A DNA stretch of 64,000 nucleotides from Candidatus Woesearchaeota archaeon (GTDB lineage: Archaea > Nanobdellota > Nanobdellia > Woesearchaeales > UBA12501), in assembly GCA_030651375.1 (NCBI GenBank), contig JAUSFM010000003.1, forward strand, positions 62,001 to 126,000. The letters are read 5' to 3'. The position numbers and the translations under genes are program-made. Of this stretch, positions 7,582 through 64,000 are shown one piece after another; the first letter of the stretch is position 1, and every line of letters starts with the position of its first letter. The notes beneath the pieces are model-generated. The model ran no database searches. It saw only the letters and a list, made by a program, of their open reading frames with translations, and had not been told where the DNA came from.

Positions 7582-7658
7582 GCGTTTAGAAAATAACAAG
7601 TTATATAAAAGCGTTTTCCCACCAACCTTTTTATATTCCCCTTCTTTAGTGATTCTTC

Positions 7659-8273: not shown

Positions 8274-8279
8274 GTAAAT

Positions 8280-9494: not shown

Positions 9495-9641
9495 ACAGTT
9501 TATGACATATGACTCCTATTTAAACCTTCCTCTGTTTACCACTTGTTGATAGTATTATTTGACTGAATTATTTTATCCATCAAAAAATTAATAAACATCG
9601 AGACAAACGGAAGGTATCAACAGCCAAAAAGAGGAGTTTGC

Positions 9642-10661
9642 ATGCCAAAAAAAGAGAAAGAAAAAGAGAAGGACATAGATGTTAACCGTTTTCTGAAAAC
9701 AATCAAGAACAAAGAGCTTCCTGAAGTAACTAAAAGTATCATGACCGGCCAGGTGCGCCGCAAGCTGGTTCTTGAGCAGATACGCAGAAACCTCCTGCTC
9801 GGCAGTATTCGCCAGCAAACATTCCGCACATGGATTGATCGGCTGTCATTCCCCCGCATTCTCACCGTGTGGCTTGGTATCATCATATTATTTGGCTTTT
9901 TCTACTCCTCGTTTGCAACCAGTCATTCTTACCTTCATTACAACCAGCTAAACCAAAATGTTGAGTCACTCAAAGATGCGGTCTATTTCAGTTTTGTCAC
10001 GGCAACAACAACGGGCTTCGGTGACATCGTACCCTTAGGATTCTTCAAACTGCTTGCTATCGTTGAAGTGCTGTTCGGCCTGCTTCTGCTTGCCTTGGTT
10101 ACCTCGAAACTCGTGTCCATCAAGCAGGACATCATACTTACTGAACTGTATGAATTTTCATTCGAGGAAAAGCTCAATCGGCTCCGTTCCTCTCTGTTAT
10201 ACTTCCGGCAAAACCTGAACCGCATCATGGGAAAAATTGAGGAAAACCATTTCCACAAACGGGACACCAGCGAAATCAATATCAATCTTTCTTCGTTCGA
10301 ACATATCCTCACTGAAATATTTGCCCTTGTCAGCAAATCACCTGAACATCAGTTTATCAAAAATCTCGACCCAGTCAACGCCGGCCTCATTCTGAACAGT
10401 GTCATCACCTCATTTGAAAAAGTGCATGAGTTGATTATACTTCTGGACCAGCACAAAATCCAGTGGCGCAGCGATGCAATACTCACGCTCATCCGCAAAA
10501 ACATTCTCCTGACTGAGGAACTGTTCATTAAAATGAATGCATCACATGCCATGACCAAAGGAATCAGCAACGACGTCAACACGCGCAAGAACAAAATCAT
10601 CAGCCAAATCAAGGGAAAACTGCCGGCGCCGACGGACAAGCCGCTGAATAAGTTTTTTTAA
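9642..10661 (+). CDS. Two-TM potassium channel
   Basis: 339 residues. A basic N-terminal region (Lys/Glu-rich first 12 residues) leads to TM1 at about 70-92, a pore loop with the filter TATTTGFGD near 119-127, and TM2 at about 132-152. The TTGFGD filter indicates K+ selectivity (Ion_trans_2 type). The 185-residue cytoplasmic C-terminus is helical and lacks an obvious RCK/TrkA-N Rossmann motif, so gating is unclear. GAGGAG lies upstream of the ATG as ribosome site. Confidence 0.85.
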   Translation: MPKKEKEKEKDIDVNRFLKTIKNKELPEVTKSIMTGQVRRKLVLEQIRRNLLLGSIRQQTFRTWIDRLSFPRILTVWLGIIILFGFFYSSFATSHSYLHYNQLNQNVESLKDAVYFSFVTATTTGFGDIVPLGFFKLLAIVEVLFGLLLLALVTSKLVSIKQDIILTELYEFSFEEKLNRLRSSLLYFRQNLNRIMGKIEENHFHKRDTSEININLSSFEHILTEIFALVSKSPEHQFIKNLDPVNAGLILNSVITSFEKVHELIILLDQHKIQWRSDAILTLIRKNILLTEELFIKMNASHAMTKGISNDVNTRKNKIISQIKGKLPAPTDKPLNKFF

Positions 10662-10742
10662 TATCACGCATACTCCTCCAAATTAAAAACTTTATAAACT
10701 CAAACAATATTAATCATGTTTATTCTTTGAAAAGAGGCCTCT

Positions 10743-12830
10743 ATGATATTCAACGAACGCGGACCCTACACGTACGCCAGCGCAATGGATTCTGAATACT
10801 TGCCAAACTCAACGCTTCTCGGCGTGCCGCTGTACGGTGACTCGCTTGCAGCACCAATTGAGGGCCCCCGAGGAGAGCCAACGATTAGCGTCGGCGAACT
10901 CGGACAAACCGTCGGCGAAGGCCGTGGATCAGGATCGTTTATTGAATCAGTACAGGCAGCAATCCGTGCAGGTGGTTCGCATATCGAATTAAGTTTGAGC
11001 GCGTCAGGCAGCGAACCAAATGTCGGCCCTGACCTCTACGGAAAAGAAAAACGGCGCGAAATCAGGGAAATTGCACGGGCAAACCAAATCAATATCGCAT
11101 CAGTCCACACCCCTGTTCAAGTCGTTGCAAACATGTCCGGATTTGCGGGTGAACAGCGCGGCTTTGTTGACGACCATCGCCATATCCAAGTCACTGAAGT
11201 AAAAAAAGCAATCCAGTTTGCGGCGGACACCACCGACGGTGCTGCTGTCATCGTGCATACGGGAGAATTCCAGCGCCCGTTTACCGAACAGTCATGGGCA
11301 CGGACAAAATACGGCGAATTTAAGCATTACGAAGAAGAAAAAGAGCGGTTCATTGCGTATGTTGTCGACGACAGAACCGGCCGAATCATGGGTGAGGCGA
11401 AGAAAAACATGATTGTGTACGAGCCGAAATATCAGACTGCGGAAACGCTGAATCAGATTGGCAGGCGGGACGAAAAAACCGGGCGCGTCCTCCAAAAGCA
11501 GGATTGGGTTGACATACATGGCCACTGGCTGAATCCGGACAACACCGATGACATGTTCGAGCGCGTGCCGGCATGGGACCAGTCAAAAACACGCTTTGAA
11601 ACAATTCCGCTTAAATGGGACGATTTTGTCGAACGGGCGCGCCAGTTCAATGAGCGTCACGCAACGGAAATCCAACAAGGAGCAAAAGACAAGATTTCAC
11701 CGGAAGAGATGTTCCAGCAAACACAATACCTCAATAATGCCTTGCGTTCGCGCGGCGGCTCGCTGTTTCACGGACGATATTATGCAGAAGAAAAAAAGGC
11801 GTATGACGAAGCAGTAAAAGCGCTCGACTATTTTCAGAAAATTGAAGACAAAACACCAAAAGAAGAGCAGTGGCGCATACTCAAGACACAGTTTAAAATA
11901 CAGCGTGGCGGACAGCAGGTTGCTGAATTTATTGGTTCACAGCAAAAAATGCCGACAGAAATCCTAAAAGAATTTGTTGAGCAGCAAAAAAATGCTATGC
12001 GGTACGCGCACGAAGCCTCTGCAGCGTCAGACGCAGAAGCAGACCGCATTATTGAGGACATGCACCATGTGATGAGCGTTGGCCGCTATGCAAAGAAAAA
12101 AACATCAGATTCATACGCAGAAGCAGGCATCTACGCAATGGATACCACGCGTGACCGAAATTTGCCGCGGCCATTATTTCTCGCGCCGGAAAATATTTTT
12201 CCGGAAATGGGCTATGGCAGCCATCCTGAAGAGCTTATCGAACTGGTGCAGAACTCGCGAAAAAAAATGGCGGAAAAGTTAATTGCAGAGCGCCACTGGA
12301 GTGAAGACAAGGCAAAAAAAGCAGCAGAAACGCACATCCGCGCAACGCTTGACACGGAACATTTAGGCATGTGGAAAAAACACTTTGTGAAAACTCCCGG
12401 CGAAACAGAAGACCAATTCAACGGCCGCTTCAACGCGTGGTACATGGATCAAGTCAAGAAAATGCAGGAATCTGGCATTATCGGCCACCTGCACATCGCT
12501 GATGGATTCGGCTTTGGCCACGGAAATCTCCCCGTAGGGCACGGAAACACGCCGGTTGTCGAAGCAGTTGAGTATCTCAAAAAGAAAGGCTACAAAGGGG
12601 CGTTTTTGTCAGAGGGATACGGCGATGCGCCGCGCATGATGCGCGACGCCTGGCGCGCCTTTGGCAGTCCGATTTACGCAATGGGCGGGCCAATGCGTCC
12701 CGGAGGGGCAACCCGATGGAATGATGTATCATTCGCATACTTTGGCCAGGCAGAATTTCCGCATTACATTTTTGGCGCGTATGCACCGTCCAATGACTGG
12801 ACGCTGTGGAGCCAGGTTCCAATGGAATAG
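10743..12830 (+). CDS. Sugar isomerase/AP-endonuclease-like TIM barrel protein with large insert
   Basis: 695 residues. The N-terminal part (GSFIESVQAAIRAGGSHIELSL, ASVHTP, AAVIVHTGE) and the C-terminal part (GHLHIADGFGFGHGNLPVGHG, then GYKGAFLSEG) match the beta strands and metal-ligand His/Asp/Glu positions of xylose-isomerase-like TIM barrels. Between them lie about 300 charged, helical residues, so the protein is more than twice the usual length of 250-300. The substrate is unknown. A TTTATAAA box at 10691-10698 gives a leader of about 22 bases. It is followed by DUF483 and a methyltransferase in the same direction with gaps of 29 and 11 bases, a probable operon. Confidence 0.7.
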   Translation: MIFNERGPYTYASAMDSEYLPNSTLLGVPLYGDSLAAPIEGPRGEPTISVGELGQTVGEGRGSGSFIESVQAAIRAGGSHIELSLSASGSEPNVGPDLYGKEKRREIREIARANQINIASVHTPVQVVANMSGFAGEQRGFVDDHRHIQVTEVKKAIQFAADTTDGAAVIVHTGEFQRPFTEQSWARTKYGEFKHYEEEKERFIAYVVDDRTGRIMGEAKKNMIVYEPKYQTAETLNQIGRRDEKTGRVLQKQDWVDIHGHWLNPDNTDDMFERVPAWDQSKTRFETIPLKWDDFVERARQFNERHATEIQQGAKDKISPEEMFQQTQYLNNALRSRGGSLFHGRYYAEEKKAYDEAVKALDYFQKIEDKTPKEEQWRILKTQFKIQRGGQQVAEFIGSQQKMPTEILKEFVEQQKNAMRYAHEASAASDAEADRIIEDMHHVMSVGRYAKKKTSDSYAEAGIYAMDTTRDRNLPRPLFLAPENIFPEMGYGSHPEELIELVQNSRKKMAEKLIAERHWSEDKAKKAAETHIRATLDTEHLGMWKKHFVKTPGETEDQFNGRFNAWYMDQVKKMQESGIIGHLHIADGFGFGHGNLPVGHGNTPVVEAVEYLKKKGYKGAFLSEGYGDAPRMMRDAWRAFGSPIYAMGGPMRPGGATRWNDVSFAYFGQAEFPHYIFGAYAPSNDWTLWSQVPME

Positions 12831-12859
12831 TTTGCAGATGGCAGTTTGGAGTTTGCAGC

Positions 12860-13765
12860 ATGAAAACAACAACATCAGTTCCACAACAACTGCTCTACAA
12901 AGGGAGAGACCTTCTGCACAGTTTTGAAACAATGGTTGATGCATTTGAAATTCTGTTCGTGCTGGAAGACCTCAAGCCGGTTGCGCGCGTTGAAATGCAC
13001 GAAGATTCCTATGCAAATCTGCATGATTTTTGCACGGCAAACAATCTTGCGCTCGAGCTTTCTTTTTTTAAAATTCTGAAGCAGGATAAAAACGAACCTG
13101 GATACGATCCGTCAAATACCACTGCATTAATGGCAAAAACCGACCACCCCAGCAAAGGACATTTTTTTGCGTACATTTCAAAATCACGCGATGATGCACA
13201 GCACACGCGATTTTATGAGCATATCCACAATGACGAAAAAATGGGCGAGATGCTCGGCTATCCGGCATGCTGTGTTCGTTTTTATCGCGACAATTATGAG
13301 AAAGCGGCAGAACTGCACGACGATTACTGCTTTTTCAGCATTGCCAACACTAAGGAGCATCCACCGTTTTACACGAACAATACCTTGCGTTTTTTTGACG
13401 TCGCGCTCCTGAGCCACTTTCCCTGCTCATTTGACTGTGTTGAATCGCTGTTTCAGGCAAAGCGGCGCCTTGAAGCCATACGAAAATATAATCCTGCCCT
13501 GGCAGGATATGTTGAAGACGTCCTGAAAGGGCCAGTCATTGCGCATACCAGCACCGGCATTCATGCGCTCAAGCACTGCAAGCGGCAGGGCGATAAACTG
13601 TTTTACAAGGATGTCTGGCTCACATCGCCAAATCCAATGCATAACCTTCTTATTTCAGGCAACAATGTCCAGCTGGTGAACCGGAACCATGTGAAAATTT
13701 TTCATGACAACACGCTGGTGCATGAGGAATTTGGGCCGGGTGTTGCGGCAATTGAATTTGAATAA
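12860..13765 (+). CDS. DUF483 family protein
   Basis: 301 residues from the ATG at 12860, preceded by GGAG about nine bases upstream; an upstream ATG at 12806 would overlap the preceding gene and is less likely. The motifs GYPACCVRFY (about residue 137) and HFPCSFDC (about 192) carry paired cysteines characteristic of DUF483, an archaeal family of unknown function, and may bind metal. Second gene of the 10743-14328 group. Confidence 0.75.
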   Translation: MKTTTSVPQQLLYKGRDLLHSFETMVDAFEILFVLEDLKPVARVEMHEDSYANLHDFCTANNLALELSFFKILKQDKNEPGYDPSNTTALMAKTDHPSKGHFFAYISKSRDDAQHTRFYEHIHNDEKMGEMLGYPACCVRFYRDNYEKAAELHDDYCFFSIANTKEHPPFYTNNTLRFFDVALLSHFPCSFDCVESLFQAKRRLEAIRKYNPALAGYVEDVLKGPVIAHTSTGIHALKHCKRQGDKLFYKDVWLTSPNPMHNLLISGNNVQLVNRNHVKIFHDNTLVHEEFGPGVAAIEFE

Positions 13766-13776
13766 GGTGACGTGGA

Positions 13777-14328
13777 ATGAATCGCACGCCTATTTTGAAA
13801 AGCATTGCTGACGAATACCATCTTCTTGCCGGGAAAATGCTTCAGAAAAAGACATTCATGAAACCAACGAGCATTGGCTATTTTGCCGGCGCGCGAATTG
13901 ATGACATTCACGATATTTTTGAGAAAATCCATCTGGAAAAATACAAAAAATTCATTGATCTTGGCAGTGGTGATGGTCGGGTAGTGCTGATGGCAGCGGC
14001 GTACACGAACGCGGTTGGTGTTGAATTAGATGATGAATTGTTTGCCACAGCACAGCGCATGCAGAAAAAGTTGGGAGTAAAACATGGGGCGCTGAAAAAA
14101 GCGTTGTTCGTCAAAAAAAATTATTTGACGGACATTCACCTCGGTGAATACGACGTCATTTTCATCAATCCAGACAATCCGTTGTATGAGCTTGAAAAAA
14201 AACTCGGGAAAGAAATGAAAAAAGATGCCATACTGATTGTGTACAATGCGGTGTATGCGCCGCTGAACATGAAACTCAAGAAGACGATTGGTGTCGGGCC
14301 GAGCGCAGGGTTTGTGTATACACTCTAA
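13777..14328 (+). CDS. Class I SAM-dependent methyltransferase
   Basis: 183 residues. Motif I is FIDLGSGDGRVVLMAA (about residues 64-79), followed by VGVELDDELFATAQ and YDVIFINPDNPLYELE. The N-terminal YFAGARIDDIHDIF lead-in resembles small archaeal methyltransferases with Dot1/PrmA-like folds that act on RNA or protein. GGTGA precedes the start, and it lies 11 bases after the DUF483 gene, so it is probably co-transcribed. Confidence 0.75.
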   Translation: MNRTPILKSIADEYHLLAGKMLQKKTFMKPTSIGYFAGARIDDIHDIFEKIHLEKYKKFIDLGSGDGRVVLMAAAYTNAVGVELDDELFATAQRMQKKLGVKHGALKKALFVKKNYLTDIHLGEYDVIFINPDNPLYELEKKLGKEMKKDAILIVYNAVYAPLNMKLKKTIGVGPSAGFVYTL

Positions 14329-14332
14329 CTAG

Positions 14333-14689
14333 TTATCTCACTTCAAAAATAAAGACAACCGGTGCAACATGTGTCTCATATTCCTTAGCATTTTTTTTAA
14401 TTTCGTTGAAGTCTAAAGTTCGAAGTTCTGAATCGTCTGTATCGCCGAAGACCAGTTCCCGAACAACGTCCCCGTTACGCACTGCTGAATAGTCTTTGGA
14501 AAATCGTGCTTTCCATGGTACACAATATGGGTGCCGTGGACTGATACACTTATCGTGATACCACACCTCAACTTTATCCCAAGCAACATCGTCAAGATCG
14601 GCGGTGCGCGGATCCGGAGGCGCACACGAAACAGCAGCTACAAAAAAGGCTGCAGAAATTCCACCTTTTAATTTGTCAATGAGAGTCAT
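14333..14689 (-). CDS. Small exported protein, lipoprotein-like
   Basis: 118 residues from the ATG at 14689, which is 26.5 bases from a CTTATAAG box. The N-terminus (MTLIDKLKGGISAAFFVAAV) is a hydrophobic export signal ending in SCAPP, close to a lipobox (AVSC). Two further cysteines lie in HDKCISPRHPYCVPW. The open frame extends upstream into the Nog1-like gene, but that part is an out-of-frame reading of the acidic repeat there. Function unknown. Confidence 0.6.
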   Translation of the reverse strand: MTLIDKLKGGISAAFFVAAVSCAPPDPRTADLDDVAWDKVEVWYHDKCISPRHPYCVPWKARFSKDYSAVRNGDVVRELVFGDTDDSELRTLDFNEIKKNAKEYETHVAPVVFIFEVR

Positions 14690-14732
14690 GAAGTAGAGAA
14701 AAAGTTGGCCACTTATAAGCTTTGCGGTAAAT

Positions 14733-15839
14733 TCATTCTTCCTTATTGTACTTGTTACTGGGATGGTCATCACCATCATCCTCATCGTCTTCTTCATCGC
14801 CGTCATCGTGAGAAACCCGCTCATACTCCTTTTTTTCAACCGGCATTTTTTCTTTCGGCGGCAAAAGAAGCAGGCGCTTTTTTAATTCTTCAATATCAGT
14901 AAAGAGTTCTTTTATTTTTTCTTTTTTTACCGCAGCAATAGTTTTGTCAACTACTTTTTTATCGGCAATGTCAGTCTTTGAGATGTAGACTACTATTTCC
15001 TTGCAATATTTTTTAACCGTTTCAAGTAATTTCAGCTGGTCTTCTTCCGGCACTTCATCCGTCGGGTCAAATACATACACCACAAGGTCGGCGCAGTGTT
15101 TCACCGCAAGGTACGCCTGCTTTTCGATGTCATTCATTTTTTCAAAGCGGTCAAGGGTGCCGGGCGCGTCGATGATTTGTATCTTTATTCCCGGCTCTTT
15201 GAGATACCCGGTGTTGATGTTTTTTGTTGTGAATGGGTACGCCTTGATTTCCGGCTTTGCTGTGGTCAATTTTGCAAGGAGCGTTGATTTTCCAACGTTG
15301 GGAAAGCCAAAAAGGCAGGCGGTTGGCATGGAGGTCTTGATGGTGGGAAACTCTTTCAGTATTTTCCTCATGTCGTCAAGCAATTTAAACTGGGGGTCAA
15401 CTTGTTTCAGAAACGATGCGATTCTGCCATAAAATGCGCGCCGGTGGTTGTTAATGTCAGCGATTGTTCGCGCAGCATCAATTTTATTGGAATAGTCCCG
15501 CTGTAATTCGTTGGCCTTGTCATGCATCCATTGCACTGCCCCCAGTGAATGTTTGAATTCGTGAAAGTCAAGGCGCAGGCGAACCAGTTCTTGATAGAAG
15601 CGAGGCAGCTCTGAAAAGTTTGGAAACGAACTCAAAATTTTGTGCAGTGCACGCGTAAGGTTCGCGGTGACTGTTTTTACCTTTATTTTTTCGATTGTTC
15701 TTGATTTTTGCAGGTTATCCATGCGCGTTTTTTCATCTTTCTTAGTGCGCATAATCCCTGCACGTTCAGTTGCTGCGTGAAACGCGTGATCGAGATAGGT
15801 GTCAGCAGTTTCAACTTTGAGGAGCTCTTGCATGTTCAT
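14733..15839 (-). CDS. Nog1-like GTPase (Obg/DRG group)
   Basis: 368 residues. A helical N-terminal domain of about 165 residues precedes a G domain with G1 GFPNVGKST (about residue 178), a switch segment with YPFTTKNINTGY, G3 DAPGTLDR and G4 SKTD. This order matches the archaeal Nog1 family, involved in large-subunit ribosome maturation in relatives. The C-terminus is a run of Asp/Glu (about 15 acidic residues). GTATATAT lies about 26 bases before the first ATG. Confidence 0.85.
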   Translation of the reverse strand: MNMQELLKVETADTYLDHAFHAATERAGIMRTKKDEKTRMDNLQKSRTIEKIKVKTVTANLTRALHKILSSFPNFSELPRFYQELVRLRLDFHEFKHSLGAVQWMHDKANELQRDYSNKIDAARTIADINNHRRAFYGRIASFLKQVDPQFKLLDDMRKILKEFPTIKTSMPTACLFGFPNVGKSTLLAKLTTAKPEIKAYPFTTKNINTGYLKEPGIKIQIIDAPGTLDRFEKMNDIEKQAYLAVKHCADLVVYVFDPTDEVPEEDQLKLLETVKKYCKEIVVYISKTDIADKKVVDKTIAAVKKEKIKELFTDIEELKKRLLLLPPKEKMPVEKKEYERVSHDDGDEEDDEDDGDDHPSNKYNKEE

Positions 15840-31952: not shown

Positions 31953-33701
31953 ATGAAAACTTTAACGTCATTATTATTGTCTGTGTCGTTGTATTTTGGT
32001 GGTTGTTTGGATTCGGTTTCCAAACCTGCAACTCTATCAGACGTTGGGAGGAGTGTTGTTTCTGGTCGTGATGCAGGTTATGATGCTATTGTTAAGGGTG
32101 ATGTCAGTGTTAAGGATTCTTCAAATAATACTCCAGAGGTTAATTTGTCTAATATTTGTCGTGAAGGAATGAGGATTTATTCTGCTTGCGGTTTGAATGG
32201 TAATGGTTTGCAGTTTAGGTATTGTTTGGATGATAATACTTGGAGTAATTTGAGTGGTTGTGTTGATAATGATTCTTGTGTTGCAGGTTCACAGATTAAG
32301 TTTTATAATGCGGCTATTTTTACTCTTGATGTGGGAGAATGCAGGGCGGGTTTTTTAAGTTGTGATAGACAGGGCGAATCTTTTAAGTACATAATTTCTA
32401 CGCCTGAAGTTCTCCCTCGTCAAGATTTATGCAATGGTTTGAATGATGATTGTGATACTGATACTGATGAGGATTATAACGTCGGAATGCCTTGTAGTTT
32501 AGAAGTTGCTGGTTGCGTGTTTGGTGGTAATTATGTTTGTTTAGAAGATGGTCGTAGTACGATGTGTGTGCAGACAAATCCCGAACCTTTAAGGTGTGTT
32601 GATTCTGGAGTTCCTGAAAGAGACGCCGGTTTTCCAGAACGAGATGCTGGAGTTCCAGTAGATACTGGAATGCCAGATGTTGGTTATGATGCGCAAAATA
32701 GTGATTCGGGTATTCATGGAATAGATGTTGGTATTGTTCCGTCACCGGAGGTTTGTAATGGTGTAGATGATGACCTTGATGGGTTGGTTGATAATCTTGT
32801 GCCTGAATCTCGTTCTTGTGGTGTTAATTTAAGGGGTGTTGAGGAGCGTTATTGTGTTGATGGTGCTTGGTCTGTTTGGTCTGCTTGTGATAATTTTGAC
32901 CAATGTTTATTAGGAAATATAAGAGAATCTTATAATGGGCCTGATGGTACGTTAGGTGTTGGTGTTTGTAAGGCGCAAGTTGAACAATGTGTTGATGTTG
33001 ATGGTCTTGCACAGTATGTTATTGTCTCACCGCAGGTTTTGCCAAGTGTTGAAGTTTGTAATGCGAAAGATGATGACTGTAATCGTATTGTTGATGATGG
33101 TTTTGATGTTGGGCAAGCGTGTGAAGACTTATGCAGAGGTGCTGGAACAGTTCAGTGTCTTGGTGATGGGAATGGTACTTACTGTTTCACTATTAATATT
33201 CCCGGTCAATTATATAATGCAGATTTTGAACGAGCAATAACACCAGATGGAAGCGTGCCTTGTTGGGATGTTCGACAGGGAAGTCCGGGTGTTGTTTCTC
33301 TTGCAGAAGGGTATAATTCTTGTCAGGGACAAAACGCTCTTAGGGAACGAGAAGGAAACAATGAAGCATACATTGTTTCACAAGTAGTAAACTTACAAGA
33401 TAGAGTGGCAGATATTAATGCTAACCATTTGCAAATAACAGCAACAGACATTGTATCAAGCGCAAGTGATGTAGTAGGATTCGGAATTGCCTTTTATGAT
33501 GCAAATATGAACTTCATCAGCGAAAACTACCATGAGGGAATGGAAGGGTTTGAAAACGTGTGCAACCAACGAACAATCCAACAAGTAATACCGCCAAACA
33601 CGAACTATCTCGAAGTTCGCCTCACCGGAACAAACAATGGCGGAAATACTAATAATGCAACACACGACAACATCACATTAGACTATGCAATAATACAATA
33701 A
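31953..33701 (+). CDS. MopE-like cysteine-rich lipoprotein
   Basis: 582 residues. MKTLTSLLLSVSLYFGGC is a lipoprotein signal. Three CNG-x-DDD-type repeats (DLCNGLNDDCDTDTDEDY, EVCNGVDDDLDGLVDN, EVCNAKDDDCNRIVDDGF) are the putative metal-binding MopE motif. Between the first two is a Pro/Asp/Gly repeat with units like VPERDAG. The last 170 residues, rich in beta strands and Asn, resemble a carbohydrate-binding-type domain. GGTGA at 31944-31948 lies inside the preceding stump. Codons are dominated by T-ending forms (GTT, GAT, GGT, TGT) up to about 33200 and then shift to A/C-ending ones, unlike the neighbours; transfer is likely. Confidence 0.7.
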   Translation: MKTLTSLLLSVSLYFGGCLDSVSKPATLSDVGRSVVSGRDAGYDAIVKGDVSVKDSSNNTPEVNLSNICREGMRIYSACGLNGNGLQFRYCLDDNTWSNLSGCVDNDSCVAGSQIKFYNAAIFTLDVGECRAGFLSCDRQGESFKYIISTPEVLPRQDLCNGLNDDCDTDTDEDYNVGMPCSLEVAGCVFGGNYVCLEDGRSTMCVQTNPEPLRCVDSGVPERDAGFPERDAGVPVDTGMPDVGYDAQNSDSGIHGIDVGIVPSPEVCNGVDDDLDGLVDNLVPESRSCGVNLRGVEERYCVDGAWSVWSACDNFDQCLLGNIRESYNGPDGTLGVGVCKAQVEQCVDVDGLAQYVIVSPQVLPSVEVCNAKDDDCNRIVDDGFDVGQACEDLCRGAGTVQCLGDGNGTYCFTINIPGQLYNADFERAITPDGSVPCWDVRQGSPGVVSLAEGYNSCQGQNALREREGNNEAYIVSQVVNLQDRVADINANHLQITATDIVSSASDVVGFGIAFYDANMNFISENYHEGMEGFENVCNQRTIQQVIPPNTNYLEVRLTGTNNGGNTNNATHDNITLDYAIIQ

Positions 33702-55182: not shown

Positions 55183-56130
55183 TCATCCAAATATTCTTGT
55201 ATTCAAATTTTCAGCAACCAGCACAATCTTCTGCGCGTACGTCGCCGTATCTCCATTCGGCAATCGTCCGTACGGCTTAAGAAAACCGGTTGCCGACGTA
55301 CTTCCTAATCCGGCATTGTAGGCGGACCACGCTGCAAGCACGTTGCCGTTGCGCGCTTTCAAACTGTCAGCAATGTACCGCGCCATAGAAGGAACCGCAT
55401 GCGCACCGATAGTGCGTTGGTCAAAGTCATTCAAAAAAGCGCGGTCGTCTTCGTTGAAAATATCGCGACTGGAAATATTAGCTGCAAAAAAAAGTTTGAA
55501 TTCCTCTTTTGCCCGGCGTGCTGCTTCTTCAACCGCGGGAATTTCTTTTTTTTCCCGCTGCGAGCCGTTTTTTTTGTAGGCGCGCAGGGTTGCAGACAAG
55601 GATTCATACTCGCGCTGTTTTCCTGCAAGTTCAGGAAGCTGGTACGGCGACCGATAGTGCTCGGAAAGATCGCCGGCGCACACGAGATTGAATGGCTTGT
55701 CACGCGCAGTCGGCGCGATGAATTGGGCAACACCGACGGCAAGTGCAGAAGAAACTGCAAATTCATAGAACAATGACTCGACATACAAGCCGGCGACAAG
55801 AAGTGCCGGGTCAACCGGATGGATTGATTTATTTTTTTGGCAGCTTTCGACGGCAAGGGTGGTGATTTCCTCAAGCCGCGCTTCAAGCGAGTATTTCACG
55901 TCGTAAAACGGCTGTTTCCAGACGCCGAACGGCTGATTTGGCGGATGGTTTTGTTTCAAAAAATCCATTGTGGCGCTGCGCAATTTTCGTGTGTACCACC
56001 AGCCGCTGACGCCGTTGGGCGGCTCATAATTTTTTGGAAGAAGAATCGTAACCGGTGATTCTGCAACAAAATGCAGGCAGGATGCAAGCGGCAAACTGCC
56101 AAGCACAGCAAGAAAACTGCGGCGGTCCAT
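55183..56130 (-). CDS. Lytic transglycosylase-like lipoprotein, Tat-type signal
   Basis: 315 residues from the ATG at 56130, 26.5 bases from a TATA-like box. MDRRSFLAVLGSLPLASC has a twin-arginine RRSFL motif and a lipobox (LASC18). Residues 106-140 (DPALLVAGLYVESL with E118, then SALAVGVAQFIAPTA) and SAYNAGLG near 285 follow the SLT/goose-lysozyme pattern, with E118 as catalytic acid. Such enzymes cut murein glycan strands. A helical insert separates the halves. Divergent from the class A PBP gene, 90 bases away; stop is four bases from the RuBisCO stop. Confidence 0.75.
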   Translation of the reverse strand: MDRRSFLAVLGSLPLASCLHFVAESPVTILLPKNYEPPNGVSGWWYTRKLRSATMDFLKQNHPPNQPFGVWKQPFYDVKYSLEARLEEITTLAVESCQKNKSIHPVDPALLVAGLYVESLFYEFAVSSALAVGVAQFIAPTARDKPFNLVCAGDLSEHYRSPYQLPELAGKQREYESLSATLRAYKKNGSQREKKEIPAVEEAARRAKEEFKLFFAANISSRDIFNEDDRAFLNDFDQRTIGAHAVPSMARYIADSLKARNGNVLAAWSAYNAGLGSTSATGFLKPYGRLPNGDTATYAQKIVLVAENLNTRIFG

Positions 56131-56220
56131 ACTAAACAACAGGATGAGCAGTGTTATAGTTTGTTGTTGTGGAGCATGCTACAACACAGGTTTAAATTGA
56201 GAAGGGCAATGAATAAACCA
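56131..56220. promoter_or_regulatory. Divergent promoter region, transglycosylase and PBP
   Basis: Two TATA boxes in 90 bases: TTATAG at 56154-56159 (minus, for ATG 56130) and TTTAAATT at 56191-56198 (plus, for ATG 56221), each centred 26.5 bases from the start. Adjacent divergent promoters suggest joint control. Confidence 0.55.
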
Positions 56221-58449
56221 ATGCACAGCCACATTGCAGACGAGGAAATAGCTGAACGCGGAATAACTGAAACTTCAACCAAAAAAGAAAAAGGGCTGGT
56301 GCGAAGAGTTGCCACAAAAATAGGCGCGTATGTTCTTGCCGGAAGCATCGCTCTCGGCGCAGCGCTGGGCGTTGAACAGTTTGGAAGCCCGATACAGCGT
56401 TATGTGGGAAAAATAATGGTGGAGCACGAACAGGGAATTCTTGAACAAACTAATAACCGTGTCGCAAAAAAACTTGACGATATACTCGACCAGCTTAGCC
56501 CAGTACCGCTCAAAACGCTTGTACAACAGTATGCGCAGGAGCGAAGTGATGGAACAATAACACTGCTCGACCGCACCAAGACACCGTTTGCTGAACGCCC
56601 GCAGTATCAGGGAAAAGTGGTGCAGGACCGCACACGCGTAATCTGGAAATCTCTCGACGAAATTTCGCCGTATCTCGCCGCTGCAACCGTCGCGGCAGAG
56701 GACCGCCGATTTGAGCATCACGGCGCATGGGACCCTGCGGCCGCAATCAGCGCAGCAGCAGACATTGCAGCAGCAAGGGTGCAAGGGAAAAAAACATACC
56801 CCCGTGGCGCAAGCACCATAGCCATCCAGCTTGCTGATAACCTGCTCTGCCCCGCATGGAATCCACCGTACGCGTGCACGGCTGATAATAAGTTGGTGCA
56901 CAAAATGAGGGAATGGCTGCTTGCCGCAAAAATTGAGTCCGTGTCATCAAAAAAAGATATTCTTGAAACGTATTTGAACAGTGCTTATTTTGGGTATGAA
57001 CCAAGGAGCAAAGCGCATTTGGTCGGCGTTGAAGCAGCGGCACAGCATTATTTCGGCAAACAGGCAGTATCGCTTGACGCAGGAGAATCAGTTTTGCTGG
57101 TTGCGATGATAAAAAAGCCATCGCGGTATGGCACGCGGGCGTATGCAGATTTTTCACAGGGGAAATTGTCAACGGCTGCAGTAAACGGGCTTGTGCAGCG
57201 CGCGCAGTACGCAATTGAATCATTTGGTGAGATGAGCAGAAATGGAGAATTTCAACAGCCGTACTATGCAGCGATTAAACAAGACGATGTGCAGCGCATT
57301 ATCGCACAGCTTCATTATCGGAATCTGCCATTTGTGCGGCCGACGCCGGCAACGCCGCGTGAGCGCGCGTATGAATTTGAAGACGTGGTGCTTCAGCAGC
57401 TCGAAAAACTAAAATTGCCGGCGCATGGTGACGTAACTATTGAAACAACGCTTGATCCGGGGCTGCAGGATTTTTCACGCGATGTGCTGCGCCGCTCCAT
57501 TGAAAAAATACGCGCAAGCGGCGCGCCAAAGCCGGAATACCTAAACGGCTCTATCGTCGTCGTTGACACCGAAAATCAAGAACTTCTTTCCGTGGTCGGC
57601 GGATTGGGCATTGACCGCAACGATTATATCAACCGCGCCCTGCGACGCACGTCGGTTGGTTCTGGCTTTAAGCCGTTCATCACGTGGATGTATCTCGAGC
57701 AGGGCGGCCACATCACGGATACGTTCAAGGATGCGCCGAAAGTGCTCACGTACCAGTTCGCGCCGGGAAAAACAAAAACGTACCGGCCGGGAAATTTCAA
57801 GGGCCACTTCAGCTACCAGAACATCACGCTTGAGCAGGCGCTTGCCGAGTCAAAAAACACGATTTTTGCCGAAGTAAATTTCAACCTGATTCGTGATCTC
57901 GGCGCAGAAAAAATGAAACACGCGCTCAATATGCTCGGCATGGGACTTGAGCAGTACTGGCTTTCGTCGGTGCTCGGCACTGAAGTTGCGCCGCTTGATT
58001 TTGCCGGCGCGTTTTCAATATTTGCCAACGGAGGGACGGTGCATTTAAACGAGACCGGCATGGTAAACCTTGACCCGCTTAAAAAAATTGTGTACCATGA
58101 TCCGACAACCGGCGCTGAAAAAATATATCCTGAAACCGGCACCGCGTATGCAGCAATAACCCCACAGCATAGCGAAACGCTCGACCACGCATTGAGAAAA
58201 GTGGTAGTGGAAGGCACGGGAAAAAGAGCAGATATCACGGGGTATGACATTCGCGGCAAAACAGGCACGGGCCTCGCCAGCTTTATGTTTGTCGGATACG
58301 AGCCAGCGCTTGACCGGCTCGTGCTGGTGCAGTTCAGCTCTGACGAGCCTGCAGCAACCGGCCGGCTGAAATTAACGGGCGGTGAATGGGCTGCGCCGGC
58401 GGCAAAAGAAATATTCCAGTATATGATTGACCATCAGAAGCAGAGTTAG
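56221..58449 (+). CDS. Class A penicillin-binding protein (GT51 plus transpeptidase)
   Basis: 742 residues; ATG 56221 fits a leaderless message, ATG 56209 adds four. A membrane helix (about 33-52) is followed by the GT51 domain: E160 in AAEDRRFEHHG, R195-T199 in RGASTIAIQLADN (bacterial GGSTITQQ), and E249 in ILETYLNSAYFG. The transpeptidase domain has S481/K484 in VGSGFKPF (SxxK), S544-N546 (SKN) and K680-G682 (KTG). All motifs needed to polymerise lipid II-type glycan and cross-link peptides are present. Archaea normally lack murein. Composition matches neighbours, so it is settled in this genome or long acquired. Confidence 0.9.
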   Translation: MHSHIADEEIAERGITETSTKKEKGLVRRVATKIGAYVLAGSIALGAALGVEQFGSPIQRYVGKIMVEHEQGILEQTNNRVAKKLDDILDQLSPVPLKTLVQQYAQERSDGTITLLDRTKTPFAERPQYQGKVVQDRTRVIWKSLDEISPYLAAATVAAEDRRFEHHGAWDPAAAISAAADIAAARVQGKKTYPRGASTIAIQLADNLLCPAWNPPYACTADNKLVHKMREWLLAAKIESVSSKKDILETYLNSAYFGYEPRSKAHLVGVEAAAQHYFGKQAVSLDAGESVLLVAMIKKPSRYGTRAYADFSQGKLSTAAVNGLVQRAQYAIESFGEMSRNGEFQQPYYAAIKQDDVQRIIAQLHYRNLPFVRPTPATPRERAYEFEDVVLQQLEKLKLPAHGDVTIETTLDPGLQDFSRDVLRRSIEKIRASGAPKPEYLNGSIVVVDTENQELLSVVGGLGIDRNDYINRALRRTSVGSGFKPFITWMYLEQGGHITDTFKDAPKVLTYQFAPGKTKTYRPGNFKGHFSYQNITLEQALAESKNTIFAEVNFNLIRDLGAEKMKHALNMLGMGLEQYWLSSVLGTEVAPLDFAGAFSIFANGGTVHLNETGMVNLDPLKKIVYHDPTTGAEKIYPETGTAYAAITPQHSETLDHALRKVVVEGTGKRADITGYDIRGKTGTGLASFMFVGYEPALDRLVLVQFSSDEPAATGRLKLTGGEWAAPAAKEIFQYMIDHQKQS

Positions 58450-58525
58450 TTTTTGCCGTTGGTGTTTTTAGTTGTTGTTCTTGCTACACTATAAGTTTTT
58501 ATCACTGGCAAAACCACAGAAAAGA

Positions 58526-59896
58526 ATGGCACACCAAACACATCATTCTTTGATCGGGCGAATCGTCCGCTGGGGAAGTATCACCACACTGGTAGCCGGT
58601 GGCGCAGTGGGAACGTATATGCTCGTTGCAGAGACACCGTTTACCGAGAATATTTCTCTGGTGAGCAAAAGTTATGCCGCTGCAAAAATTGACACCGCGA
58701 TTGGCTGGGGGCACCGCGCGCTCACGACTGACCCTGCCGAACTTATGGACGATGTACGCAGCATGGGAGAAAAAGTTGAAAAAGTGTTAAGAGAATACCG
58801 CGGCCCGATTGCAACCGGTGAATTTGACGGCGTACTTGAAAGCATTCGCGGCATGCTTGAAGACCAGCGCACAACAATTTCAAACTACCGAACGAGCCAG
58901 GCAAACCAGATTGCAGCGGAACGAGAACTCACGCAGTGCATCATTCAAGTTGACGCTCTTTCACAATTAGCGCATGCCGTCGATAAAGCGCGCGATACAG
59001 TGCCCGGATGCACGCAAGCGCTTCAAAATTATCAGAATGTGCAAAAAGCAGCTGCGCCAGCAGGCGAATCAAAAAAATTAGGAAAGCCAACAGCGCAGCA
59101 GCTTGCGGCTGAATCAAAACGAATTCAGCAGCAGGCAGCAGGGCTTGAGCGCCTTGCATCGTGCGCAGAAACAATGGTGACTGCGTATGGCGCGTTTGAC
59201 GCGGCGCAGCAAAAACTCGAGCAGGCACAGCAAGGGAAGAATGCACACCAGCCAAAAGATATGTACGAAGCAGCATGTCTCATGAAAGGATTGGCTGTGT
59301 ATGCTCCGGTTATGGAACGTAGAGAGCTAAACGGGCTTCTTGATACGCTGACCGGCCAGATGCGTGGATTTTACGACGGAGAATCGCGCTATGCCCGCGA
59401 CCGTGACGCCGCATACCATGCGCTGAGTACGATGAATGTTGATGATGTTTCACAAGCGCGAAAAAGTATTGACGCGCGCGTTGAGGGAAGTGTGCGCATA
59501 CGCTTCTTTGTTGAAGATGTGCAGGCGCTTTCGCGCATGCCAAAACAGTATCGTGTTGAAGCGGCACGGTTTCTTGCGGAGTCAGTCTATGCCTCATCGC
59601 CTGAAGAGGGCGAACAGCTTGCGCGCATGCTTGCCCCGAAAATGTCGTCGGCAGTTGTGCGCGAGATGGCAGCTGCATTGCCAGCAGAAGAACAGCGGCG
59701 ATTGTATGGTGAGCTCGGCGCGCAACTAACGCCACCATCGACAAATACCGCGCCGTTCCAGCAGCCTCTGCAGCAACCGATGGGAAGTGCGCCGGGAAGT
59801 GCACACTATGACGCGGAAGACCGGCCAGCACAAACATACACACCACCTATTCCTGAAAAAGGATTTTTGCAAAGAGTGATTGAAAAAATATTGTAG
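58526..59896 (+). CDS. Membrane-anchored helical protein, Pro/Gln tail
   Basis: 456 residues from the ATG at 58526. One N-terminal membrane helix (about 14-34) then a helical, Ala/Gln/Arg-rich exterior or interior domain with six or so cysteines (about residues 130-275), and a C-terminal region with PLQQPMGSAPGS and a short amphipathic end PIPEKGFLQRVIEKIL. Follows the PBP by 76 bases in the same direction with its own weak TATA-like box. Not recognised; probably a partner of the PBP locus. Confidence 0.65.
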   Translation: MAHQTHHSLIGRIVRWGSITTLVAGGAVGTYMLVAETPFTENISLVSKSYAAAKIDTAIGWGHRALTTDPAELMDDVRSMGEKVEKVLREYRGPIATGEFDGVLESIRGMLEDQRTTISNYRTSQANQIAAERELTQCIIQVDALSQLAHAVDKARDTVPGCTQALQNYQNVQKAAAPAGESKKLGKPTAQQLAAESKRIQQQAAGLERLASCAETMVTAYGAFDAAQQKLEQAQQGKNAHQPKDMYEAACLMKGLAVYAPVMERRELNGLLDTLTGQMRGFYDGESRYARDRDAAYHALSTMNVDDVSQARKSIDARVEGSVRIRFFVEDVQALSRMPKQYRVEAARFLAESVYASSPEEGEQLARMLAPKMSSAVVREMAAALPAEEQRRLYGELGAQLTPPSTNTAPFQQPLQQPMGSAPGSAHYDAEDRPAQTYTPPIPEKGFLQRVIEKIL

Positions 59897-59951
59897 AAAA
59901 AAACAAAAGAATAAGGAACGAAGAATAAGGAACAAGTAGAGGAGGGAGACT

Positions 59952-60683
59952 ATGAACAATCGACGATTTCATGACCAAAAAAAAGCAGGAGGATATGTAA
60001 CAATAAAGCGCGTGCTTACCACGGTAGGCGCAGCAGGATGCGTGTACATCGGCACATGGCTCTCGAGCCCGACGCTGAACGAATCACTCGAACGGGTAAC
60101 AGCAGCGGCAACAGAAAGTGGCGAAGCAAGCGCCGCCGTTGGATATCGAGTTATGGACACGGCACTGCAGAGCTCAAAACAAGATGTGATAAAAGTGTTG
60201 GGGGACGTGCATGCAAAAGCGCCTGAAGCGTTTCAGCGATTTGTCAATCTAGCGTATGCAGTCAACGCGCTCAATGGCAGCACGCCCGGCCAGCTTGACC
60301 CGACACGATTGGGAAATGTGGTATTGGGTGAAGCGTCGATTGGCCAGCGTGATGGCACGATTTCTGTTGAATATCAACAGCCCGGCAGCGCGCCGCAAAG
60401 TTACGCAGTCCGCACATTTAATGGAGACAACGGGCTTGAGCTCGTGCTGCAGCGCACCGGACTTGCGCCTATTTCAGTTGGCCCGCCTGCACTGACCGTG
60501 CCAAATGCACCAATGTCGCCGGGAGTTGTGTACCAACAACCGCAGCAGCCTGCACCGTTGTCAAGTGCACCGGCACCGTATCACGCGGCGGCCGGAAGTG
60601 GAGCAACGTATGCGCCAGCACCATCGGTATCAGCAGCACCGATTCCAAGCATCGGCAGCTTGTTCAAAACAGTGACGCACTAA
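59952..60683 (+). CDS. Membrane-anchored protein with Pro/Ala/Gln-rich tail
   Basis: 243 residues, GGAGGGAG before the ATG. A basic start, one hydrophobic segment (about 19-38), about 120 residues of mixed domain, then a Pro/Ala/Gln/Ser-rich tail ending PIPSIGSLFKTVTH. The end shares PIPxxGxL with the preceding protein. The stop overlaps the next start (TAATG). Confidence 0.65.
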   Translation: MNNRRFHDQKKAGGYVTIKRVLTTVGAAGCVYIGTWLSSPTLNESLERVTAAATESGEASAAVGYRVMDTALQSSKQDVIKVLGDVHAKAPEAFQRFVNLAYAVNALNGSTPGQLDPTRLGNVVLGEASIGQRDGTISVEYQQPGSAPQSYAVRTFNGDNGLELVLQRTGLAPISVGPPALTVPNAPMSPGVVYQQPQQPAPLSSAPAPYHAAAGSGATYAPAPSVSAAPIPSIGSLFKTVTH

Positions 60684-61000
60684 TGAGCACCATGAACACC
60701 GCACCAATCGCAGAGACGCTGAATGCAACCGAACAGATACGTTCCACACTGTGGAACGCGCTGCAGCTCGAAGAGCCACGCTACACCATGGCTGACCGCG
60801 TTATGCTCGCGGCAGCATCGGTATTTGGCGAACGCGCATATCGGCGGATGGAACACGCAGTTAACCAGCAGCATGTTCCGGGTGTCATCGCTGACCTCGA
60901 CCGGTTTGCGCATGATTTGAAGCGGGAACTGGGCAATGCGTACCGAGGAGGGAAAGAGGGAAGTGTTCAGTGCGAGACAGCGCGAGTTTATATCGCTTGA
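60683..61000 (+). CDS. Hypothetical helical protein, 105 residues
   Basis: Starts by one-base overlap with the preceding stop, so translationally coupled. Soluble, helical, Arg/Glu/Ala-rich; no family recognised. Position suggests a role with the membrane-anchored proteins. Confidence 0.6.
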   Translation: MSTMNTAPIAETLNATEQIRSTLWNALQLEEPRYTMADRVMLAAASVFGERAYRRMEHAVNQQHVPGVIADLDRFAHDLKRELGNAYRGGKEGSVQCETARVYIA

Positions 61001-61142
61001 CGAGCATACAAAAAATGATTCAAAAATAAAAATTCAAAAAATAAAAGTAATAAAAATAATTGAAAATAAAGCTTGAAAAAATAAAAGAAAATAAAACAAT
61101 AAAAATGAACAATAAGAATCATTTTTCACGGAGGGAACGAAC
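61001..61142. repeat. A-rich spacer with long-range inverted repeat
   Basis: The 142-base spacer is about 65 percent A. AAAAATGATTC (61011-61021) and GAATCATTTTT (61116-61126) are perfect 11-base inverted arms 94 bases apart, just before the GGAGGG site of the next gene. They may fold the transcript or bring two protein sites together. Confidence 0.5.
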
Positions 61143-62423
61143 ATGGCAGACAAAGATGGTAACGGAAAGGAAGGAACAGACCATTCTATTGATGAAAAAA
61201 ATTGGGAGCAAATAGAGAAAGAGCTCCGCGCTGAAGGGGCATCAGGGACAGGAACAAATGGTGCTTATACAACGACGACACAGCAGCAAAACGGCTCAAA
61301 TGGAACAGGCACGAAACGCGGCGGACTTGAAGGAGCAGTAAATGCACCTGACCTTGCACAGATGTACCATGTAAACGGCGCAGGAAATGGATCACAGAAT
61401 CCGCTCACCGCAAAAGCAAAAGAATTGGGACTGCTTGAGGGCATTAACCTTCCCGGCACGCAGAGAGAATTAGATACTATGCAGAAACAGGCAGAAGAAA
61501 CACCAAATTTTCTTGAGCAAAAAATGAAGTTCCTCGCTGATGTAAAGGTAGAAGATTATTACGGCACACTGGATGGGGCGCTGATCGGCGTTGCCCGAAG
61601 AATGGGAACGAAAGTATATGGAACAGTGCAAGGCTGGGTTGATAACCGGGTGAAAAAAGGACTTAAGGATATGGTTCGCTCAGACCTTGAAGAGCAGGCA
61701 ACAAAATTACGCGCAAATGTTGAGCGATATGAAAAGATTTCTGGCGAGCTAAGCAAGGTTGGCGAGAAATATTCGCAACGGAGCATTGTTGGAAATGCCA
61801 TGCTACAACAGGAAACCTACCCAAAAATAGCGGAGGGATATAAAGAGATAGAGCGGCTCAACAAAGATCTCGCAGCAGCAACACAATCGGGAGATTTCAC
61901 GAAGGCCCATGCAGCACGCATGGAAGGGAACCGAAAAGAAAAAGAAGTTGCTGAACAAGAAAACTTTTATGAACGCCTTGATTTCCGCGTGAAGGCAGCA
62001 AGGACAGCAACCACCGCAGTGGAGGGGCTCATCGAGCGTGCTACCAGGTATTCAAGCATGACGCAGCGCTACCTTATGGCGGTTGAAGAAAAAATCTCAA
62101 TGTTAGGAATGGTCGACGAGATTGCCGGCATCCAGTTTGAAATAACGCCCGCGAATCTTGAGAACCTCGACTTTCTGTTGAGCGACGCAGGAAACATGAT
62201 CGGTGCAAGGGGCTGTGAAATCAATCACGCCATTCAAGCAGGTGGAGACCCGACACGGGGACCAGACTTGAAGCCGGACTACCTCGCAAGCGACGCAGAA
62301 GCCATGCGAACTGAAACGTACCGAAGTGATAGAAGGGCACGCATTGAGCGGCTCCACTCGGAACGCGTCAGCCAGTTGAATGAAGCGGCGGCAGCGTACG
62401 AGACTCCACCTCCATCGGCGTGA
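61143..62423 (+). CDS. Soluble coiled-coil protein, 426 residues
   Basis: GGAGGG lies before the ATG. The first 90 residues are disordered (Gly/Asn/Thr/Gln). Residues about 110-340 are mostly helical with coiled-coil character, including MVRSDLEEQATKLRANVERY and LNKDLAAATQSGDF. No signal peptide or membrane helix. The last residues are ETPPPSA. No family recognised; a scaffold between the membrane proteins and the AAA+ ATPase is possible. Confidence 0.65.
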   Translation: MADKDGNGKEGTDHSIDEKNWEQIEKELRAEGASGTGTNGAYTTTTQQQNGSNGTGTKRGGLEGAVNAPDLAQMYHVNGAGNGSQNPLTAKAKELGLLEGINLPGTQRELDTMQKQAEETPNFLEQKMKFLADVKVEDYYGTLDGALIGVARRMGTKVYGTVQGWVDNRVKKGLKDMVRSDLEEQATKLRANVERYEKISGELSKVGEKYSQRSIVGNAMLQQETYPKIAEGYKEIERLNKDLAAATQSGDFTKAHAARMEGNRKEKEVAEQENFYERLDFRVKAARTATTAVEGLIERATRYSSMTQRYLMAVEEKISMLGMVDEIAGIQFEITPANLENLDFLLSDAGNMIGARGCEINHAIQAGGDPTRGPDLKPDYLASDAEAMRTETYRSDRRARIERLHSERVSQLNEAAAAYETPPPSA

Positions 62424-62494
62424 TTCTTTTAGTTTTTATTTTTTTCTGTTTTTATTTTTAATTTATTTTTGATCTTGAGTGAGGAAAGTACCCC

Positions 62495-64000
62495 ATGATG
62501 CCAGATGTGATACAAATTGACGGACAAGCGCTGCGCGAAGGCAGGAAACAGGCAAAGTCACGCATGCAGCTGTGGGGCTTTACAACACCACTACAGTATC
62601 ATGTCGGTGGGAGAAACACAAAAGAAGATTTAGAAAAAGTAGTCACCAGCGCCGAACAAACATATGGGTTATATGAAGCAGTGATGAAAACACTGTTACC
62701 ACTGAATCCATTGGGAAAAAGTGATGAGGTCATAGCAAAAAAAGCGCTTAATTTGTATGCATTATATGTTGGGTGCAGTGAAGGGCTCGAGGCGCTGGCG
62801 AATGGGCAGGATAGTGGCGCACATATTGAACGGCAAGCGAGTATCCCGATCGGCGAATTCGGATTTGGTATTGGAAAACCTGATGAATACCGCCCTGCGC
62901 TTGATAACCTGTTGAAGTATCACACAAAATTATTTAAAACTGGCACACCGGCACTGGCGCTGCAGAGAGAATTTTTGGCAGTGATGAAAAAAACAATTGA
63001 GCGTGAAATGCAGCAGCAGGCGTATGAAACAGTCACGGGGCAGCTTGCGGGAGTAACGCTCGCTGTTAACGAAAGAATGTACCGCGGCTTTGAAAATGGT
63101 ATGCAGCCATCAGTCGAGGCAGCTCAGTCCCCTGAAATCGTTCAGCGCCTTTCGGTGAGCAAAAATCCGGGTGAAATCGTCGTCATTGGCAATGATGAGG
63201 CGCTGGGTGAGATGAGCGGGATGGTAAAACAGCTTTTGCTGTATGATCCGGCATCCCAAACAAATGTCGCATTTGAGGGAGTGAAGCCGGTTGCGACGCT
63301 GTTGTTCGGCCCGCCCGGCACGGGAAAAACAACTATCATCAAGCGGTTGTATGCTGAAGCACAGACAGCAGCTACGCATAAGGGCGTGCCTGTGCAATGG
63401 GTTAATTTTGATAACAGCTTTAAGGACATGTACCACGGCAATGATGTCAAAAATTTGATGCGGCGATTCGACCAGCTCAAGGATCCTCGAAAGATAAGCA
63501 TTGGCTCGGTCGAGGATGTCGACAGCGTGCTGCAGGCGAGAAGCGCGCATGACGCGTCGCACATCGAATCGCAGGCGATTAATGTGTTTCTCAATGAGCT
63601 TGATGGGCTGCTGACGGAGTACCGCGGAAATTATATTCTGATTTTTACGACGAATCATGTTGAAAAAATGGATAGCGCGCTCATGAACAGGATAACGCAG
63701 CATTTTGAAATCCGCGGGCCGCAAACACCCGTTGAATACGCACAGTTGTTCCGGTATAAGATGGGCGATGCACTGCCGCGGGTCCAAATGGATAAAGATG
63801 GCTGGCAGGAATTTTGCAGGCGCTGCGTGGAGTACAGCTTTTCAGGCCGGGACATTGACAAAATAGCTGCGGTGGCAAGAAAGTATGTGGTTAACGCAGA
63901 CGGCATAACGCCAGCGATACAAACGCTTCCACCAAATGAACAGCGCACAGCACTCGCCAAAATGCGAAGGCCGGTAGACGCAGGGTATATTTTGCACGAG
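62495..64000 (+). CDS. AAA+ ATPase, C-terminus outside window
   Basis: The frame starts at ATG 62495 (GAGG ten bases upstream; ATG 62498 also possible) and is open to the edge, at least 502 residues. An N-terminal region of about 220 helical residues precedes GPPGTGKTT (Walker A, about residue 271), a modified Walker B (SIGSVEDVD), sensor 1 (LIFTTN), MNRITQHF with the Arg finger position, and sensor 2-like FSGRDIDKI. It resembles classic AAA remodelling ATPases (FtsH/Cdc48/katanin type) but the N-terminal region is unfamiliar. Last visible gene of the PBP locus. Confidence 0.8.
   Translation, partial: MMPDVIQIDGQALREGRKQAKSRMQLWGFTTPLQYHVGGRNTKEDLEKVVTSAEQTYGLYEAVMKTLLPLNPLGKSDEVIAKKALNLYALYVGCSEGLEALANGQDSGAHIERQASIPIGEFGFGIGKPDEYRPALDNLLKYHTKLFKTGTPALALQREFLAVMKKTIEREMQQQAYETVTGQLAGVTLAVNERMYRGFENGMQPSVEAAQSPEIVQRLSVSKNPGEIVVIGNDEALGEMSGMVKQLLLYDPASQTNVAFEGVKPVATLLFGPPGTGKTTIIKRLYAEAQTAATHKGVPVQWVNFDNSFKDMYHGNDVKNLMRRFDQLKDPRKISIGSVEDVDSVLQARSAHDASHIESQAINVFLNELDGLLTEYRGNYILIFTTNHVEKMDSALMNRITQHFEIRGPQTPVEYAQLFRYKMGDALPRVQMDKDGWQEFCRRCVEYSFSGRDIDKIAAVARKYVVNADGITPAIQTLPPNEQRTALAKMRRPVDAGYILHE

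Follow-up and report, generated by a model that had tools for sequence, protein, structure and literature searches.

A predicted class A penicillin-binding protein and a lytic transglycosylase are encoded side by side in a DPANN archaeon apparently incapable of making lipid II

In a Candidatus Woesearchaeota archaeon we identified a gene for an apparently intact class A penicillin-binding protein (PBP) next to a divergent gene for a predicted lytic transglycosylase, in a genome that seems to lack the means of making lipid II, the substrate of such a PBP. The reading that we favour, with a probability of roughly 40%, is that these are native archaeal proteins that form a peptidoglycan-remodelling unit acting on the cell wall of a partner bacterium or on scavenged lipid II. 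In the proposed mechanism, the secreted or lipid-anchored transglycosylase would cut glycan strands and open the mesh, and the membrane-anchored PBP would polymerise lipid II and cross-link stem peptides outside the membrane. The lipid II or stem peptides would be supplied by the bacterial partner at the contact site, because the archaeon seems not to make this substrate, and the archaeon would either cut and re-knit the partner's wall or graft itself onto it. On the inner side, anchored helical proteins, coiled coils and an AAA+ ATPase would provide the scaffold and the control. That the partner is a bacterium, what the substrate is, how the parts are arranged across the membrane, and that the ATPase and coiled coils serve the PBP are our inferences. 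The bolder formulation, in which some DPANN archaea keep a complete synthase whose substrate they do not make, tap the lipid II of bacterial partners and cut and re-knit the wall at the contact with an ATPase-driven scaffold on the archaeal side, across the domain border, appears doubtful to us at present.

The window, by which we mean the whole stretch of 64,000 nucleotides analysed here, corresponds to positions 62,001–126,000 of contig JAUSFM010000003.1 of Candidatus Woesearchaeota archaeon (GCA_030651375.1), a genome of 1.30 Mb in 23 contigs with a completeness of 100% and a contamination of 0.91%. The locus comprises the following genes:

55183..56139, minus strand: predicted lytic transglycosylase with an SLT domain (PF01464, 35.9 bits, cut-off 21.3), 318 amino acids (aa) from the listed TTG
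56221..58449, plus strand: predicted class A PBP with GT51 and transpeptidase domains (PF00912, PF00905, PDB matches) and an N-terminal anchor, 742 aa from ATG
58526..59896, plus strand: helical protein of 456 aa with a weak N-terminal hydrophobic stretch and a proline-rich tail ending in PIPEKGFLQRVIEKIL
59952..60683, plus strand: protein of 243 aa with a weak N-terminal hydrophobic stretch and a proline-rich tail ending in PIPSIGSLFKTVTH
60683..61000, plus strand: soluble protein of 105 aa, no family above cut-off
61143..62423, plus strand: charged, coiled-coil-like (by composition) soluble protein of 426 aa
62495..64000, plus strand, ending at L002:10231 past the window: AAA ATPase of 578 aa at full length (PF00004, 69.7 bits, cut-off 21.2)

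The transglycosylase gene diverges from the PBP gene, which is followed by five co-directional genes, and the intergenic gaps in this co-directional row are shorter than 150 bases. Calling of open reading frames recovered every gene named in a preliminary description of this DNA where it had been placed, and extending the row to the right, as that description had asked, showed that it continues on the same strand with a 541-aa P-loop ATPase, a 608-aa charged coiled-coil-like protein, TrmB and an FAD oxidase. The product of the gene at 62495 is a classical AAA ATPase, with the Walker A motif GPPGTGKT and an AAA domain over its cut-off; the 541-aa protein carries a Walker A motif and matches no family. 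The products of the genes at 58526, 59952, 60683 and 61143 gave no family over cut-off in the Pfam search. Those at 58526 and 59952 had been described as membrane proteins with a common tail motif. Both do have an N-terminal hydrophobic stretch, but their best 19-residue hydropathy means (1.38 and 1.25, respectively) fall under the usual threshold of 1.6. The tail motif is real: the pattern P[ILV]P..G.[LIVF] occurs within the last 30 residues in 2 of the 273 open reading frames of the fetched loci, which are precisely these two. An AF2 model of the 456-aa protein was all-helical, at a pLDDT of 44 that makes it unusable. The N-terminus of the transglycosylase features a hydrophobic signal (hydropathy 1.75) with the motifs RRSFL and LASC, which we take to be Tat-like and lipobox-like, respectively, and catalytic-looking VES and AYNAG motifs were recognised by eye. 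This protein is predicted to be a secreted or lipid-anchored murein cutter.

The surroundings of the locus are archaeal. A type III RuBisCO gene adjoins the transglycosylase gene (573 bits, cut-off 497), an archaeal-type LysRS lies to the right of the cluster (193.7 bits, cut-off 147.6), and the GC3 of the PBP gene is housekeeping-like (0.53, compared with 0.54 for MetRS and FolC). By these sequence features the host of the locus is an archaeon. Across the genes of the PBP cluster GC3 ranges from 0.42 to 0.59, whereas it is 0.36–0.39 in a stretch from L002:18522 to L003:12549, with genes on one strand for kinase-like proteins, for proteins that are secreted or anchored, and for a PP2C phosphatase that has a hydrophobic segment. 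We therefore excluded this stretch from the cluster; it is possibly a signalling island of separate origin. Its gene at L003:10591–12549 encodes a protein of 652 aa that carries a signal peptide and shows, by eye, an outer-membrane beta-barrel-like pattern that is odd for an archaeon; a family search with this product gave none. A similar-looking gene (L019:16530–18575) is found in another genome, G010, about 6 kb from the PBP gene of that genome. Elsewhere in the window, at 31953–33701, we observed a 582-aa product whose start resembles a signal and which repeats motifs of the CNGxDDDxDG type, by which it is presumably MopE-like.

Both catalytic domains of the PBP scored over their Pfam cut-offs, Transgly (GT51, PF00912) with 131.3 bits (cut-off 27) and Transpeptidase (PF00905) with 69.8 bits (cut-off 22.1). 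The N-terminal anchor, at residues 84–102 of the long open reading frame, has a hydropathy of 1.61, which is borderline against 1.6. An AlphaFold model built from 13 sequences reached a pLDDT of 72.9, and the 50 matches listed by a structure search with it were solely PBPs or peptidoglycan glycosyltransferases, with a poor domain placement (TM 0.34–0.51 on the query). The domains, their order, the catalytic motifs and the N-terminal anchor are common to this protein and bacterial class A PBPs (PBP1A/PBP1B, e.g., PDB 4oon, 5u2g, 5hlb). In contrast to these, its host is an archaeon in whose genome FtsW, MraY and MurG were not found, it groups with two archaeal PBPs apart from the bacterial class A PBPs, and it scored 257 bits against the cut-off of 508.75 for the PBP1A subfamily (TIGR02074), outside which it thus falls.

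The source of lipid II was addressed by a search for the families FtsW/RodA, MraY/WecA, MurG C-domain, Mur ligase middle domain and Ddl C-domain. It covered 28 genomes, 14 with GT51, including that of the window, and 14 without. FtsW/RodA was absent from all 28; MraY/WecA was present in 6, the MurG C-domain and the Mur ligase middle domain in 12 each, and the Ddl C-domain in 9. In the window's own genome the family search found no FtsW, MraY/WecA or MurG. Its sole Mur ligase match, a 426-aa protein (41.9 bits), reads as FolC, and its Ddl match is a 311-aa Ddl-like ATP-grasp protein (66 bits). A complete lipid II pathway in this genome was accordingly not supported, and within the families searched the host archaeon seems unable to make the substrate of its PBP. 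The class A PBP thus stands in a genome where the FtsW, MraY and MurG steps of such a pathway were not found. This is the key point that was missing from the preliminary description, and together the lack of FtsW in all 28 genomes, the lack of MraY and MurG in the own genome and the FolC-like nature of the Mur ligase match argue for a substrate drawn from a partner's wall.

Several Mur ligases (three matches) are present in just one of the 14 GT51 genomes, G005; six of the others, including the window's own, have one match each, and seven have none. Of the six single matches, only that of the own genome was inspected. Two of the three Mur ligases of G005 share a contig with MraY and MurG. On a G005 locus (L020, G005:C2:9001-29000), positions 1–15000 hold murA-, murB-, murG-, mraY-, murF- and murC-like, GT51 and flippase-like genes, several of them named by eye. 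The G005 contig stems either from a bacterial contaminant or from an archaeon that possesses a lipid II pathway.

Alternatively, the PBP could build or cross-link an envelope polymer of the archaeon itself, from a lipid-linked precursor that is scavenged or of another type, as part of a machine for growth of its own envelope or for division. The combination of an anchored PBP, helical partners and an ATPase does resemble a growth machine, a Ddl-like ATP-grasp protein is encoded in the genome, and the PBP is maintained within an archaeal gene context. However, MraY/WecA, MurG and FtsW family members are missing from the genome, a putative S-layer protein is encoded to the right of the cluster on the same contig (38 bits, below its own cut-off of 110), and 9 of the 10 genomes of the window's family lack such a PBP. 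We thus consider this explanation unlikely. Some considerations weigh against our preferred reading of an enzyme pair working on a partner's wall: the Ddl-like ATP-grasp protein is present, the active site of GT51 requires membrane-bound lipid II, and we know of no route from an archaeal membrane to the lipid II of a partner.

The grouping of the PBP, transglycosylase, helical, coiled-coil and ATPase genes was evaluated by comparison with other contigs. The closest PBP with a full neighbourhood, in genome G107, is 28% identical to the window PBP over 630 aa. After it come, in order, a helical membrane protein (330 aa), a small membrane protein (116 aa), a coiled-coil-like protein (390 aa), a P-loop ATPase (524 aa) and a further helical protein (503 aa); an FAD oxidase and a TrmB that are 34% and 37% identical, respectively, to those of the window flank this block. 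On the Woesearchaeota-titled contig described below, homologues of two G107 proteins lie one on either side of the PBP. The middle proteins of the window and G107 proved unalignable by BLAST, phmmer, hhalign and shuffled Smith–Waterman comparison beyond a weak ATPase match. In the shuffle test, the score between the 578-aa AAA ATPase and the 524-aa ATPase was reached in 0 of 300 shuffles, that between the 243-aa protein and a 164-aa protein in 2 of 300 and that between the 456-aa and 330-aa proteins in 13 of 300, all weak results given that 18 pairs were tried. G107 therefore resembles the window in its gene order, with clear homology confined to the PBP and to the TrmB and oxidase that border the block. 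A search of 193 genomes of the order for the 541-aa ATPase found it in 1, the window's own.

The preliminary description had made its idea depend on the neighbouring genes accompanying the PBP in other genomes. Similar gene types and homologues of the flanking genes do accompany it in G107, but neither homology of the middle genes nor recurrence of the second ATPase was observed. Alternatively, the unit might consist of the PBP and the transglycosylase, with an unrelated adjacent operon made up of the helical, coiled-coil and ATPase genes. This would agree with the limited homology of the middle genes to G107 and with the restriction of the 541-aa ATPase to one genome, but the similar order of gene types with an equivalent flanking TrmB and oxidase in G107 and the single co-directional row with gaps below 150 bases speak against it, and we judge such a division of the row improbable. 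These genes likely belong to one predicted system, although the middle genes are without proven relatives, which also counts against the reading of a partner-directed unit. Of the system proposed earlier, an undescribed envelope locus is supported; a single machine, its reach across the membrane and a role as a weapon remain proposals. Two other assignments found no support: an anti-phage defence module, for which the family matches were generic AAA, kinase and SLT with marginal SIR2 and JetC (E 0.005), and a virus module, since viral contigs gave one PBP relative and none for three other queries.

The catalytic residues were compared in an alignment (A2) of 13 archaeal PBPs including that of the window, the others being 18–29% identical to it. 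Its invariant columns are largely catalytic. They comprise E160, D161, S198, Q203 and Y251 of GT51, and in the transpeptidase S481/K484 (SxxK), S544/N546 (SxN) and K680–T683 (KTG at K680–G682); the residues are given their usual roles in such enzymes. The second GT51 glutamate, E239, is a glutamate in 8 of 13 sequences, including the window PBP, an aspartate in 4 and a glycine in 1. The window PBP therefore looks like an intact bifunctional class A enzyme. The invariance of E160, SxxK, SxN and KTG in all 13, together with both domains scoring over cut-off, argues for a working synthase applied to a partner's wall. It also bears on the proposal that the transpeptidase half alone matters, anchoring archaeal surface proteins to bacterial stem peptides, trimming these peptides or soaking up beta-lactams. 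The transpeptidase triad is invariant in 13 of 13, as this proposal would have it, but GT51 residues E160, D161, S198 and Q203 are equally invariant, and we regard a role restricted to one half as quite improbable.

PBPs of this kind recur in the order: GT51 was identified in 14 of 193 genomes, 13 of them over cut-off, and in 15 of 371 genomes of a sample of the phylum, including three of family f90 of the same class. Of the 10 genomes in the family to which the window belongs, only the window's own encodes a relative of the PBP. The three f90 genera (L149, L150, L151) carry the PBP beside one recurring pair of archease-like genes (named by eye), and the Mur ligase middle domain was found in none of these three genomes; the f90 PBP thus looks archaeal and vertically inherited, and its setting is in line with a partner's wall as target. 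The window PBP has its closest named relative on contig L065, whose title reads Candidatus Woesearchaeota archaeon. In a quick tree, rebuilt without the three longest archaeal rows, the PBPs of the window, G107 and L065 formed one group (SH-aLRT 99 and 100 in the two builds), those of f90, G171, G109, G168 and G117 a second, and those of G010 and G113 were placed among bacteria. The tree leaves out G005, G108 and G040 and takes in L022 and L029, which are outside A2; its 27 bacterial rows were chosen by us from 79 bacterial loci, themselves biased by a pattern search. Within this tree, the well-supported branches force at least two origins for the archaeal PBPs.

Between G109 and G168, which belong to one genus, the PBPs (L021:1042–3582 and L023:9314–12127) are 40% identical over 833 positions, whereas seven neighbouring genes are 61–85% identical, a rapid change with fixed catalytic residues. 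This faster divergence might fit a partner-facing protein and, with the housekeeping-like GC3 of the window PBP, favours activity on a partner's wall. The GT51 contig of G113 carries a bacterial-looking EF-G (by eye) and may be contamination. For the window itself, bacterial contamination or a chimeric contig, suggested by the fact that PBPs are as a rule bacterial and by the partly bacterial-looking GT51 contigs of G113 and G005, is very improbable and was rejected on the archaeal genes flanking both sides, the matching GC3, the related PBP on the Woesearchaeota-titled contig, the GT51 of the single-contig genome G010 and the f90 synteny. On the sequence record, such PBPs are maintained in several archaeal lineages.

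Wall-cutting enzymes accompany these PBPs. The own genome has four SLT matches, and SLT was identified in 13 of 14 GT51 genomes compared with 98 of 179 others (one-sided Fisher p 0.0038, relatedness ignored); among the 135 better genomes the counts were 10 of 11 with GT51 and 72 of 124 without (p 0.028, relatedness again ignored). On the Woesearchaeota-titled contig, a single small gene separates the PBP from an N-acetylmuramoyl-L-alanine amidase (59 bits, cut-off 27). The enrichment of SLT, the hydrolase beside the window PBP and this nearby amidase point to remodelling of a partner's wall, against which it counts that SLT is in any case widespread in the order (111 of 193 genomes).

For murein-like lytic transglycosylases of DPANN, an attack on bacterial walls or binding to them has been proposed (PMC8204110, PMC9723730, PMC10936187). 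Those of Pacearchaeota and Woesearchaeota (PMC8204110, PMC9723730) are likewise SLT-type cutters proposed to act on bacterial walls, but reach up to 3,000 aa, compared with 318 aa here, and the accessible sections of these papers do not mention a neighbouring synthase. Archaeal peptidoglycan hydrolases are described, in the accessible part of another report, as killing bacteria (PMC12352652); the bacterial wall is the target in common, with hydrolases only in that case and a synthase plus a hydrolase in ours. Pseudomurein synthesis in methanogens also yields an archaeal wall polymer, but the genome of the window lacks the Mur ligase set, and the accessible text of that paper (PMC11915815) contains none of the terms penicillin, transglycosylase, transpeptidase and DPANN. 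A literature search of titles and the starts of abstracts, with preprints and most subscription papers outside its range, retrieved no report of a DPANN PBP. Lytic transglycosylases of DPANN are thus already published. The window PBP is itself a known kind of enzyme, and what appears new is its setting, as a peptidoglycan synthase in a cell seemingly without the ability to make the precursors.

The general view is that DPANN archaea live on other cells. Bacterial partners would be indicated by an intact synthase in cells that apparently cannot make lipid II, and such a case calls into question the rule of thumb by which a cell with a class A PBP has murein of its own. If the PBP and transglycosylase do act on a partner's wall, they would amount to an apparatus with which a cell of one domain remodels the wall of a cell of another.
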